64,000 nucleotides of DNA from contig OX422200.1 in the NCBI GenBank assembly GCA_949130485.1, positions 7,177,120-7,241,119 of the forward strand, in the 5' to 3' direction. The translations under genes and the position numbers were made by a program. The notes beneath the pieces were generated by a model that saw nothing but the letters and a program-made list of their open reading frames with translations, was not told where the DNA came from and did no database searches. This document shows, piece after piece, positions 18,201 through 27,200 of the stretch. Source of the stretch: Agelas oroides (lineage: Eukaryota; Porifera; Demospongiae; Agelasida; Agelasidae). The number at the start of each line of letters is the position of its first letter. Positions within the stretch are counted from its first letter, which is position 1.

Positions 18201-21200
18201 ATATACATGTAGCTGGTGATTAGGAGACATTTTGATGCCCCTGTATTTGATCTGCCCACTAGTAGGGTTATGACCTAAGCGGATACAGCATCTTCAGCTG
18301 ACCTTGTTGACCTCCATGCTGATATTGCTAAGAACCAGTTTCTCTCTCTCATAGCTCCATGAGGCTGAGATATCCTTCACCTTCACACATGGTAACTCAT
18401 CAGGAGGGGGTGTAGCAGGAGGTGTGGCAGGAGGCATGGCAGGAGAGTAGCCTTTCCCACCCAAATTAGTTGTGACAGTTTCACTTTTGATTCTGGTCTC
18501 CTTGTCACCTGTGCATGTGTACAATGTTGGTAAGAAGTTGGTAAGTAGTTGGTAAGAAGTTGGTAAGTAGTTGGTAAGAAGTTGGTAAGAAGTTGGTAAG
18601 ACGTTGGTAAGACAATTGTGCACTACGGAGGTCTGCTAGCACTAGTAGTCAAAATTAGGGCACATGGTAATATTGCTAACTGTAATACGCTCAGAGAGAG
18701 TGACACATCTCAATTTCTGCTACACTACTTGCCACTGACCACTGCCGTGTTCAACACAGGGCTTGAAGTAGACATGGCTACTGACTGCCTGTGACATATC
18801 GTCCAGCTCGAGTAATTTCTGGAAGTGGATATTATAGTATCATTATTACATGTACTGTAAAAGATCCCCATAGCCAAATAAGCTACTATTGACAGCTGTC
18901 TTCCACAGTACATAACGGGTTATAGGTCTTCAAAACATTTTTTGATGCGGGCTCTATCAATGAGGCTACTTCAGTGCACAATTTGGTATCTGCTTCCATT
19001 AAAGGAACTAGTACTAGTCACATGTTTGTCACCTTTAGAACTATTTGCAACCAGGATCAAGATTTTTGATCAGCAGAAATGATACTTGATCATTTTTAGT
19101 GCTCCCTATAGAATCGCTGGATTGGTTGATTTATAGAGTTCAAAGGAAAATATAGTAGTCACGCCTCCTTATTAGTATCAAACAGAACTTGTTTATTTGT
19201 TGGTCTTTGTTGTTAGGAGCTCATCCTTTCATCCCTTGATCAGCTCTTAAAATGTACATTGATTTCTTGATCATGATCACAAGCGTTTCTACAGGCAACA
19301 AATAAGTGACTACCCACTAGTCATCTCCGATGTTAGTGGGATGATCACTAACAGAAGAAATCACGTAAACTACAGGATACCCACTTTCACTTTCACTAAA
19401 GAACATGCTTGAAGCACCTTAAGACTAACGTAATTGCTTGGACACTAAAGACTAAATTATCTTGCTGAATTTCATACAGTAACAGACGGGAGAGAGTGCG
19501 ACTACGAACCTTTATTCTCACTTGGGCAACTCTGAGTTCAGAAACTTGAAATAGAGCTCGAACGAAGAAATTGAAGTTGGTACGCCGCAGAGCAGTGACA
19601 AGAGAGAGAACTGTAAACACCCTTCGAGGAGTGAGCTGGCCACCAGTACCAGCAAAGGTCAGTATAACGATGCTCATTGCCAAGGTGATGCCGAACCCTG
19701 ACCTATATGATATGTTGATGGCCCGAACCATGCCTCCATAAAGAATGATGGTAGATTCATGCCTGTATGTAATGGGAGAAAGAGGATTGCTGTATGGGAC
19801 TTTGGAGTCTTCAAAGGGAAGTGACATTGATCGAATCAGATACAATGTGGTACTGGTGACAAGCTGATTCCAAGATGAGTGTTTACAACTCGTTTCTGAT
19901 GCAGATTGAAGATAGAGCGAGAAGATGTACAGCTGTTCATTATCCACTTGAGATTACTTGCAGTATGATAACCCCCCCCCCCCCCCCCCCCCCCCCCGTC
20001 CCCTCCTCCCCCCAACACCCATTAGGAGCAATCCTTCACATACTTTACCTTTATTCTTGAAAGTGCCACCTTTGCTTCCGAGATCATAAACATACTTCGT
20101 ACAAAGAAACGAAGAGCGTTTCTCCGCATGATCCCAATGAGGGAGAGAGTTGTAAACACCCTCCTGGGAGTCAGGGTGCCACCAGTGGCCACAAAGGCGG
20201 TGAGCACAATAAACATGATCAGTGTGGGAGAAAAAAAGGAGAGAAGGATGTTGTAGGCTCGAATCGTACCACCTCGTAGGATGATCAAGAATTCTTTCCT
20301 GTGGAATTTAAAACAATTGAGCTACAAACAAGTCGAGACCAAATGTTGCAGATCAATACTGGTTTATACCGCTGGCACACTGACTCCAAGATTGAGAGTG
20401 TTTACAACTTGTGATTTTTGTACGCGATTTAGAACCGTGGTATATACAATCTAGGTAAGCTGTACACACACACACACACAGAGTTTATGTGGAGCTTTAC
20501 AAAGTGATCTAACACGCCAACACGCACTCCCTCGAAGAAGGTACTGCATCAGAGTAAGCTAAACGCCCACATAAAAAATGTCTTACCTGTATTCTATCAT
20601 CTCCCACTCTGCTTTCAGATAATTGGAATATGCCTCGCACAAAGATGAATAGCATTGATTTCCGCATAAATACAACAAGGGAGAGGGTTGTAAACACCCT
20701 CCTGGGAGTCAAGGTACCACCAGTGGCCGTGAAGGCAGTGAACACAATAAACATGATCAGTGTGCGGGAGAAGGTAAGAGAGATTGTGAGGTTGTAGGCT
20801 CGAATCAAACCACCTTGTAGGATGATAAAAAATTCTTTCCTGTGGGATTTAAGCAATTGAGGTAGAAACAATTTCAAATATGTCTTTGAAAACAATAGTG
20901 ACATGTTAAGGTTGTGATGAACAAGTTGCATGCATGCCACTTTTTTTTTATGATATCTCTGATTAAAACACGTTCATCCTAACCTTAAGGCAGGTGGCAC
21001 ACTGACTCTGACACTGAGGGTGTTTACAACTCGTGATCCTTTCACGTGATTAAGTAATTTGGTCTTAGTAAAGCATCCACAATCCAAAGGAGGCGTACAC
21101 ACACACTTAACAGCTTTACAAAGTGGTCTAACACACTCCCTCAAAGAAGATACTTCACCAGAGTCAGCTAAAACCCATGTGAAAGCAGTCTTACCTGTAT

Positions 21201-24200: not shown

Positions 24201-27200
24201 CGCAAGAAATTCAATTCCTGGAATTTATAGGTGGATATAACTTAACGCATGCCCACTCAAATTATTTAATTTGCATGCGTTTTATTCGAATAAATACGGT
24301 AGCTTAATGCAAAAAAATTCACTGTAATTCACCTAAAATAAAGCTGAACATGGTCTATATCTCCTAGTAAACTAAAGCTGAATATTGTTTGCAATCTCCC
24401 TAAAGCAGAACATTGTTTGTAATCTTCCAGTAAACTAAAGCTGAACATTGTTTGACATCTTCCAGTAAACTAAAGCAGAACAATGTTTGTAATCTTCCAG
24501 TAAACTAAAGCTGAACATTGTTTGACATCTTCCAGTAAACTAAAGCTGAACATTGTTTGACATCTTCCAGTAAACTAAAGCTGAACATTGTTTGTAATCT
24601 TCCAGTAAACTAAAGCTGAACATTGTTTGACATCTTCCAGTAAACTAAAGCTGAACATTGTTTGTAATCTTCCAGTAAACTAAAGCTGAACATTGTTTGT
24701 AATCTTCCAGTAAACTAAAGCTGAGCATTGTTTGTAATCTTCCAGTAAACTAAAGCTGAACATTGTTTGATATCTTCCAGTAAACTAAAGCTGAACATTG
24801 TTTGTAATCTTCCAGTAAACTAAAGCTGAACATTGTTTGATATCTTCCAGTAAACCATTGTTTGTAATCTTCCAGTAAACTAAAGCAGAACTTCAACAAT
24901 GTATTGTTCCTTACTGTGATACGAGTGGTAGCCACTGTGCTCTCATTGAGATAAACTAGGCACACAAGTAACAAGTGGATTGCGATTATGCGGAGTGAGG
25001 TCAGCAGGGAGATGGCGGTGAACACCTTCTTGGGAGTCAGTACTCCTCCCATTCCCACATAGGTAGTGAACACCGCAAACAGGATGATAACAGCTGATGC
25101 ACCGTAATACCCAAGATTGGACGCTCGAATCAATGCCCCCTTGAGGATAAGCAGTGACTCTTTCCTATAAGTGGGAATTTGGTACCTTTCACATGCAGTT
25201 GATTGTGTACTAGTTTGTTGCTATGGTATAATGACTGGAGAAGGAAGGAAGGAGGGAGGAGGGGGGAAGGAGGAGGGAGGGAGGGAGGGAGGGAGGGATG
25301 GATGGAGGAGGGAGGAGGGAGGGAAGGAGGGGGAGGAGGGGGAGGAGGGAGGAGGGAGGAAAGTAGGGGGAGGAGGGAGGGAGGGAGGGTAAGAAGGAGG
25401 GAGGGTAAGAAGGAGGGAGCGAGGGCAAGAGGGATGGTAAGAGAGGGAGGGTGAGAGGGAGTGAGGAACATAGCTGTGAAGGAAGTAAACCATATTGAGT
25501 AACACTGTGTAATCTATGTATGCCTTCTCATCACCTTCCTGTGGCTCAACACACACATGGCAGTACAAATTATCTTTATTTTAAACCCAGAAAGACAGCA
25601 GTCACCATGACTACCTAGCCAATATCCACAAAACCAAACATTGGCCACTAACTTAATTCTGGTTGTAGCTACACCTCCCTCAAAGAGTTTTGATAAAGAG
25701 TATCTCCAAGCAGTGGGCAGAGAGACAAGGAAGAACGTAGCCAAAGAGAAGGTTGTGAACACCTTATTGTGAGTCAGTGACACCCCAGCCTCCACCGTTG
25801 AGGTGGTCAACCCCAGGAACATGGTGATGGTGGTGGTAGCAGGTGGTGCGATGACGTTTGGAAGGTTATTCCAGACTCTCTTCTTCAAGTGGAAATTTAG
25901 TTAGTCAAGCTATTACCATTAGAACTGACTGTGAGTGATATGCTCATATTACAAGTTCGACTGTTAATAAGGTAGCTAGCCACACTGTCTATCAGTCTAT
26001 GGTTATGTACAAGCAGCAGTATGCATCAAAGCCAGGTCCTCTCCGGGTCCTGGGCTCAGTTATCACCATGTCACATGTGTGGCCCCCTATATGCGCTCAT
26101 CTGTACTATTGCCACTATTATAATAGACACTATGCAATAGTTTGAATTGAATAGTTCATGCTTGACACGACAGCACACACATCCTGTTCTGCTCGTGAAA
26201 ACTCCTCCAAAGAAGTGAGCAAGATAGCAGAAACATGCACCATCTAGCACAACAAACCACAGTACTTCAACCAATAAGAAGACAGCTGTCAATATACACC
26301 AAACTGGCTCTTACACATAAACCAGGTCAACATGCACACCACCCTAAAACCAACCCATGCTCACAGTGATTCGAGAGATGGCCACTCCTCCTTGAAAGAG
26401 TCTTAACAAGGTTAACTCCGAGAAGAGAAAGGAGAGGAAGATGGCATCTACCATGGCGAGGGTAGTGAACACCCTCTTGGGAGTCAGCTCGCCCCCAGTT
26501 GCCATGTAGGTAGTGAACACCAGGAACAAGATGGTGGTATGACACACAATGTAATAACGAAAGGTACAAGCTTGAACCATTGACAGCTGGAGGATCATCT
26601 TTGACTCCTTGCTACAAGTGAAATTAAGTTGAGATAGTATGCTACTAGACTCCAGGAATTAACTTGTATAACCCTGTAAATTGTCTGAGACATTTGGACT
26701 GAATCTTGTAATCCACAGTATTCTATATCCATGGGACAGTACATCTAATAAACATTTCACCCATTGCTGTTGTGGCATGGTGATTAAATGAGAGGATGTA
26801 AGGAGGAAAAATGAGAAGCAGAAAGTAAAGAAAAGTGAGAGCGGACAAGTGGTTGATCTGCTAAACAGGCCTAAATATTTTATCTGCAAAAGTAATGCAA
26901 CATCCCATATATCTTGTGGAAAGACAGAACAAATCAGTTTTGTTTACCCACCTTCTGAGTTTAGTGACAATTCTCCTGAAGGCATACTCCCAGGCATACA
27001 TCTTGATCACTCTAATGCCTGAGATGACCTCGTTCATGATCCGTACTCGCTGGTCTGTCACTCGTGCTGACTTGAATCTGGGGGGAGATGGAGTAGAGGG
27101 AGGGGAGAAAGGAGGGAAAGAGGTGAGGAGGAGGAGAGGAAGGAGAGGAAAGAGAAAAGAGGGGGGAGTGGTAAAGTTTATGCAAGTGAACCATACAAGA

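Follow-up and report, generated by a model that had tools for sequence, protein, structure and literature searches.

Tandem arrays of alternative exons with independent origins across phyla have been published for MRP genes (PMC6071210, PMC7434440, citing Yue et al. 2017). In Dscam exon 6 (Graveley 2005, as summarized in the available part of PMC6071210), a single upstream dock faces a complementary selector before each exon. The same excerpt places the insect MRP1 dock downstream of its cluster, and outlines an evolutionary model in which docks and selectors arise from duplicated intron stem-loops. The array described here, in an ABCC4-like gene referred to hereafter as gene A, is a variant of the known theme of convergent tandem MRP exons. 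Eight copies of one exon lie in tandem on the minus strand between two constant exons, within a 64-kb stretch of DNA (the window). The host is an animal and, to judge from SRCR genes and compact introns, probably a sponge.

9277..30371, minus strand: gene A, ABCC4-like transporter, hand-built model of 29 constant exons plus one variant exon
26952..27077, minus strand: constant exon E8, upstream of the array
26365..26611, minus strand: variant exon c1, 247 nt, intact
25652..25882, minus strand: broken copy c2, frame lost and no GT donor
24915..25164, minus strand: variant exon c3, 250 nt, intact
21801..22053, minus strand: variant exon c4, 253 nt, intact
21195..21447, minus strand: variant exon c5, 253 nt, intact
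20587..20839, minus strand: variant exon c6, 253 nt, intact
20049..20298, minus strand: variant exon c7, 250 nt, intact
19510..19762, minus strand: variant exon c8, 253 nt, intact
18740..18818, minus strand: constant exon E10, downstream of the array
38665..38914, plus strand: single equivalent exon of the neighbouring paralogue, gene B, located with the exon profile

The gene A model was built by hand from splice sites, and has GT/AG at all introns and a complete frame. All seven intact copies are bounded by AG and GT sites, start after two codon bases, end at a codon boundary and have a length of 3n+1; the constant exons flank a tandem series of homologous exons that agree in phase and are similar in length. 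When joined in silico to the 29 constant exons, each intact copy gave one open frame of 1467–1469 codons including the stop (a protein of 1466–1468 aa). Every one of the seven single-copy splices was thus full length, and none of the multi-copy joins was (pairs, 0/21; triples, 0/35; quadruples, 0/35; seven-copy join, 0/1). The exon-skipped form reached a stop after 404 codons. Steric exclusion by short introns was rejected, the introns between copies being 286–2861 nt long.

The whole gene A protein contains two ABC_membrane and two ABC_tran Pfam stretches, forming two TMD-NBD halves, and the best solved-structure match to its first 739 aa (with c5) was the ABCC4 chain 8zbr_A (E 1.1e-171). By this domain content and top match gene A is an ABCC4-type transporter, as the initial annotation had proposed; the coordinates and exon lengths given there, and its tally of seven intact copies, were all correct on recheck, c2 being the only broken copy of the eight. 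The exon profile, run over the 64 kb, found whole copies only in gene A (eight, c2 included) and gene B (one), confirming the earlier claim that the neighbouring paralogue is single-copy. Searches of the window revealed neither a third ABCC gene nor any additional duplicate of the exons of gene A or B, and an Rfam scan of it gave nothing at gathering score.

The newer part of the finding, missed in the earlier annotation, is a set of selector-like and dock-like elements in the introns. Directly before each of c4–c8, the intron carries a 37–46 nt antisense copy of the constant core of the exon (the GGxLTPxxVFT codons). The c3–c4 intron holds a single free copy of the core in sense orientation, the putative dock.

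23604..23638, minus strand: sel0, weaker antisense element, for which the dock is the best complement
22763..22797, minus strand: dock, isolated sense core in the c3–c4 intron (exon profile E 1.2e-6, positions 108–152 only)
22121..22162, minus strand: sel4, antisense, 68 nt before c4
21598..21637, minus strand: sel5, antisense, 151 nt before c5
20993..21032, minus strand: sel6, antisense, 154 nt before c6
20373..20409, minus strand: sel7, antisense, 75 nt before c7
19846..19891, minus strand: sel8, antisense, 84 nt before c8

The exon profile detected the five antisense elements at E 7.5e-5 to 2.1e-3, one per intron before c4–c8; dock and antisense elements aside, all further non-exon matches had E > 0.5. 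Chance local complementarity was rejected on these E-values and not on the shuffle null, which covered c1, c4, c6 and c8 and reached a maximum of 31 in 60 shuffles, partly overlapping the observed scores of 27–40. Against the dock, sel8 scored 31, equal to the maximum of a separate set of 200 shuffles. Two control exons, 16761-16611 of gene A (score 37) and 40864-41053 of gene B (41), were level with some array scores; by inspection, these matches appear to be low-complexity. For the gene B exon, the gene B introns contained no antisense element (complementarity score 20). No exon was recognisable around the dock, and c1 and c3, which lie upstream of it, have no selectors. The weaker element sel0 scored 33, compared with a maximum of 31 both in 200 shuffles and in the rest of the window, and is possibly, on this suggestive score, the relic of a lost unit. 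The motif CACAC is common to the dock and four of the five selectors and is absent from all c4–c8 exon cores.

We consider it probable (roughly 0.65) that gene A contains a mutually exclusive exon cluster that swaps TM5–TM6 and part of the substrate pocket, and that the choice among c4–c8 is made by competing RNA pairings. Splicing in one copy would exchange the TM5–TM6 segment and part of the pocket while both ATPase domains stay constant, and missing the exon or including two would shift the frame. Since the intron elements derive from coding sequence, a selector can pair with either the dock or exon cores. Pairing with its own exon core would form a stem around the 3' splice site and the 5' half of the exon; alternatively, pairing with the dock would free or favour that exon, and because there is a single dock at most one selector would be captured at once. 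With c1 and c3 both upstream of it, the dock cannot explain the choice among all seven copies; these two would have to be governed otherwise.

A more elaborate version of this scheme, which we regard as doubtful, is that the array locks itself: a stem between each core and its antisense element would hide the exon, and the dock, the core left behind by a dead exon copy, would unlock one of them at a time. If so, part of the conservation of the GGxLTPxxVFT motif would reflect its role as RNA, the sequence would record how a docking-selector system arose, and an exon array would be seen to have built its own splicing switch from coding sequence. In contrast to the duplicated intron stem-loops of the model in PMC6071210, as far as the excerpt sets it out, the stem here would consist of exon and intron, with a dock that resembles the core of a dead exon.

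Folding and duplex calculations gave a mixed picture of partner choice. Each selector together with its own exon folded 3.1–5.2 s.d. below 60 shuffles, with 32–36 bases of the selector pairing with the core of that exon. Duplex energies were -44.6 to -56.1 kcal/mol for selector and dock and -46.1 to -57.5 kcal/mol for selector and own core; the best duplex of selectors with non-core exon pieces was -30.2 kcal/mol (n = 75). By duplex energy the dock was not the preferred partner: the c7 core was the strongest for all five selectors (-55.5 to -63.2 kcal/mol), beating the dock in 5/5 cases and the own core in the 4/4 other cases. Nor was an overall copy-specific pairing code found, the true selector–exon assignment ranking 20th of 120. 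One case of marked specificity was c8, the core of which paired with sel8 at -54.4 kcal/mol as compared with -40.6 to -45.6 kcal/mol for the other four selectors. In one global fold the selectors took mixed partners, and the dock paired only partly with sel8.

That pairing energies favour neither dock nor own exon consistently is in keeping with a different explanation, in which mutually exclusive use of the exons is imposed by proteins together with frame/NMD filtering, and the antisense elements are inert remnants left by an inverted duplication of the core. The phases alone would keep double-inclusion and exon-skipping products out of the full-length pool, c1 and c3 have no elements, and dock–selector pairing in Dscam exon 4 is disputed by one group, according to the available part of PMC6379703. 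Inert leftovers, however, should decay like their flanks, and the selector columns were 68–82% identical, compared with 21–36% for flanking intron, in nine of the ten intron pairs of the array, values to be read with the knowledge that discovery by core match favours the selector identity and that flank gap columns were counted as differences. In the tenth pair, the recent c5/c6, the figures were 97% and 86%. The selectors thus appear conserved above background between array introns. Against inertness also stand the confinement of the match to the core, with one element per intron at 68–154 nt from the exon, and the recurrence of the elements on other contigs. Taken together, the evidence makes this explanation unlikely.

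The recurrence was seen in ORFs of other public contigs. Antisense elements are read through in P0014, P0016 and P0017 (sel7-like in P0014 and P0017), and the sel8 element was recognised by eye in P0122, P0126 and P0127; P0016, P0122, P0126 and P0127 are close relatives, and some of the likeness between elements in recent duplicates is due to shared descent. A selector candidate in P0009 exceeded the null maximum in one test (28 vs 24) and was negative in another, and is only suggestive. P0074 was above shuffles in one test (50 vs 42) and below in another (20 vs 22); P0108 (31 vs 28) and P0103 (30 vs 27) were slightly above shuffles in one test. Among DNA relatives, seven pattern stretches in genome contigs were retrieved, none of which was confirmed, and viral contigs yielded none.

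It is a good deal less plausible that the gene uses only one or two copies and that the others are duplicates in decay. The broken c2 fits such decay, as does a c4-like copy on another contig (P0109) that looks frame-shifted by eye, and c4 and c5, which barely differ (dN 0.05, dS 0.08), are too young to test. Seven copies have nevertheless kept frame, phase and both splice sites. Among the seven and the gene B exon, with c2 left out, dN was below dS in 26 of 28 pairs, and the remaining two had no computable dS. In a calculation that ignores indels, the probability that a neutral copy keeps its frame and splice sites was 0.3–1% for c1, c3 and c8 at full distance and 4–7% at half distance; the same test had little power for c4–c7 (6–59% at full distance). 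Retention in c1, c3 and c8 is on these figures unlikely without selection. A false array made by collapsed or mis-joined paralogous genes is very improbable, as JC distances between the copies range from 0.06 to 0.98, pieces resembling c4, c7/sel8 and c8 (P0109, P0127, P0123) apparently lie together on one other contig of 773,678 bp, and the window has no additional gene A or B exon copies.

The reading of a mutually exclusive cluster that exchanges part of the substrate pocket is consistent with the protein alignment. The variant exon aligns with TM5, the outer loop and TM6 (TM boundaries for segment averages were set by the analyst); the GGxLTPxxVFT core is constant and the helices vary, bearing out the initial annotation on this point. 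The exon covers the residues that match F324, L363, L367 and F368, which belong to the human MRP4 pocket according to the accessible part of PMC10202912, and these residues vary between copies. At the match of L363 the residue is L, I, D, G, K, R and R in c1, c3, c4, c5, c6, c7 and c8, respectively. The gene would offer seven naturally occurring MRP4-type pumps distinguished solely by the TM5–TM6 segment, including charge changes at the L363 match, useful for probing cargo recognition by such pumps.

Domain order is the same as in ABCC4/MRP4 (PDB 8zbr, 8bjf), where TM5–TM6 residues help to form the human pocket (PMC10202912, in part); the chains compared have one fixed TM5–TM6 segment, whereas gene A has seven intact alternatives. 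With the tandem exons of Drosophila MRP and other phyla, as the available excerpts describe them, gene A shares an ABCC-family gene and near-equal homologous exons, and in those arrays, likewise, one exon is chosen and competing RNA structures have been proposed. The earlier interpretation stands for the ABCC4-like gene, the segment, its core and the single-copy paralogue, and needs moderating on novelty, independently arisen MRP arrays being already published (PMC6071210 and PMC7434440, in the parts available). Unlike the arrays of other phyla in these excerpts, the array here belongs to an ABCC4-type gene of a probably non-bilaterian animal and its selectors and dock are copies of the coding core of the exon. 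In coleopteran Dscam1 exon 6 (PMC8042237, in part), the proposed pairing likewise involves exon sequence; the selector of that system is itself partly exonic, whereas the array here sets an antisense element in the intron against the core of the exon. Compared with the Dscam exon 6 arrangement in the excerpt cited above, which gives no coding origin for its elements, selectors precede only c4–c8, the dock lies after c1–c3 and not before all variants, and the elements, through their match to the core, are able to pair with exons as well. The layout nonetheless resembles the dock and selectors of Dscam exon 6, and the antisense elements suggest a role for RNA folding in deciding which single copy is used.

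Gene A, a complete ABCC4-like transporter gene, was modelled by hand from its splice sites. In this model, the constant exons E8 and E10 enclose eight copies (c1–c8) of a single exon encoding TM5–TM6.

Gene A and its exon array
30371-9277, minus strand: gene A, complete, ABCC4-like; 29 constant exons plus the array
27077-26952, minus strand: E8, constant exon before the array
25882-25652, minus strand: c2, broken copy; frame and donor both lost
18818-18740, minus strand: E10, constant exon after the array

The seven intact copies (c1 and c3–c8) measure 247–253 nt, and each opens two bases into a codon and closes at a codon boundary. 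When exons were joined in silico, a full-length frame was obtained with any one copy (7/7), and with no pair (0/21), triple (0/35), quadruple (0/35) or seven-copy join (0/1); the exon-skipped form also failed to give one. dN was lower than dS in 26 of 28 copy pairs, with the single equivalent exon of the neighbouring paralogue, gene B, counted in; the remaining two were not computable. The neutral chance of c1, c3 and c8 staying open was 0.3–1% at full distance and 4–7% at half, in a test that has little power on c4–c7.

In three successive blocks of 100 columns towards the ends of the two genes (columns 1201–1500 of the alignment; window roughly 9277-13000 and 43600-45312), A and B are 90–100% identical, as against 35% in block 401–500, after TM6. 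Gene conversion between them is possible. Elsewhere, 1-8665 holds near-duplicate ORFs and recurring pieces of SRCR domains, of which two out of three tested were over the Pfam cut-off, while the ORFs at 46147-54353 and 55194-63064 are presumably a multi-SH3/PX scaffold gene and a myotubularin-type gene.

The introns directly before c4, c5, c6, c7 and c8 each carry an antisense element (sel4–sel8), a 37–46 nt reverse complement of the exon core that encodes the constant GGxLTPxxVFT loop; the mirrored stretch is exon positions about 105–155. All five are opposite-strand matches to the exon-copy profile, with E values of 7.5e-5 to 2.1e-3 in 64 kb. Two further features lie in the c3–c4 intron.

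Lone core and sixth element
22797-22763, minus strand: putative dock, a lone sense core; exon profile E 1.2e-6
23638-23604, minus strand: sel0, sixth and weaker antisense element; best fit is the dock (33 versus a shuffle maximum of 31)

There were no other non-exon matches to the profile with E <0.5 in the 64 kb, and an antisense element for gene B's exon was looked for and not found. Between array introns, the elements are 68–82% identical, as compared with 21–36% for flanking intron in 9 of 10 pairs, where gap columns in the flanks were scored as differences and detection through the core match partly builds in the likeness of the elements. For c8, the element is 68–78% alike between copies, as compared with 58–62% for exon positions 1–45.

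We propose that the copies would undergo mutually exclusive splicing, with RNA-pairing control over c4–c8; c1 and c3 fall outside that control. As to the order of partners, we hypothesize that its own selector would lock an exon and the dock would free it. In local folds, the predicted partner of every element was the core of its own exon (z −3.1 to −5.2, 60 shuffles), with 32–36 element bases paired. Predicted element–dock duplexes are about as strong as those with the own core. The dock and four of five elements have CACAC in common, where the c4–c8 exons differ, which favours the dock as partner. The c8 core gives −54.4 kcal/mol with sel8 and −40.6 to −45.6 kcal/mol with the other four elements, an advantage favouring own-exon pairing at c8; the sel8–dock duplex is at −44.6 kcal/mol. 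Counting against both preferences, the strongest predicted partner of all five elements is the c7 core, and the sel8 score against the dock, 31, equals the best shuffle. Partners were mixed in a single global fold, and copy-specific own pairing was not found overall, the true assignment ranking 20th of 120.

The gap between sel0 and the dock is 404 nt after discounting a 33-nt tandem repeat; selector-to-core spacing in live units is 225–309 nt. The fit and spacing of sel0 are at most consistent with a dead unit whose core is now the dock. At 23833-24303, the c3–c4 intron also contains two inverted arms of 30 nt, 93% complementary and separated by 411 nt, which look like a small transposon. Occurrences of the 17-nt motif TATTGACAGCTGTCTTC and of its exact complement are spread over three array introns (18887-18903, 23810-23826 and 26278-26294).

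Protein searches revealed related exon ORFs on many public contigs (best 120 of 135 in one search), and the element reappears where these ORFs read through into the intron. Downstream of c5- and c6-like exons (P0016 and P0014) it scored 55 and 53 against shuffle maxima of 26 and 23, and upstream of a c7-like exon (P0017) 43 against 29. These scores come from a scan of 27 flanks from 20 of the 120 proteins; a wider scan took in 108 flanks of the 120 proteins. By eye, sel8 is visible in P0122, P0126 and P0127, which are close relatives found with a query containing sel8. In P0122 it lies in a different reading frame from the window's, indicating that the element outlasted surrounding indels. The element in P0009 is only suggestive and the signal in P0074 inconsistent; most remaining flanks showed no element, many stopping short of where the site would be. 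Among the matches listed, five other contigs, recognized by the equal bp size of the parent contig, have at least two copies each, which could belong to one gene or several.

Contigs with several copies
420,787 bp: P0009, P0084, P0107
2,213,382 bp: P0037, P0044
2,377,544 bp: P0098, P0116
495,335 bp: P0096, P0114
4,526 bp: P0016, P0099

On a 773,678-bp contig, the ORF of a c4-like exon (P0109) shifts frame, by eye, within its TM5 part, and probably represents a dead copy from a close relative.

Among solved structures the top match was an ABCC4 chain, on which the variable segment spans from just before TM5 to after TM6. Reported pocket residues of human MRP4 include F324, L363, L367 and F368 (PMC10202912). 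All four fall inside the variable exon and their letters match the aligned chain; around 325 and 364 the register is less certain, owing to alignment gaps beside the former and at the latter.

Residues at pocket sites in c1, c3, c4, c5, c6, c7 and c8 (alignment of copies)
324: Y, Y, S, S, S, S, R
363: L, I, D, G, K, R, R
367: L, H, F, F, F, R, N
368: F, L, M, L, I, F, F

Of five stretches with analyst-set limits, the core loop varies least, at 1.67 distinct residues per site versus 3.09 for TM5 and 3.81 for TM6. Since the pocket residues vary, and the core is constant and the helices variable, the copies plausibly differ in cargo.

Independent origins of MRP tandem exons in several lineages are described in two papers (PMC6071210, PMC7434440), the first of which counts MRP1 among genes with competing pairs. 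Among the matches listed from the open literature, with subscription papers such as Yue et al. 2017 on MRP arrays outside it, there was no report of a sponge array of such kind, nor of a dock and selectors drawn from an exon's coding core. As MRP arrays are published as recurrent, the array itself is of an already known kind, and the coding-derived elements are the new part.
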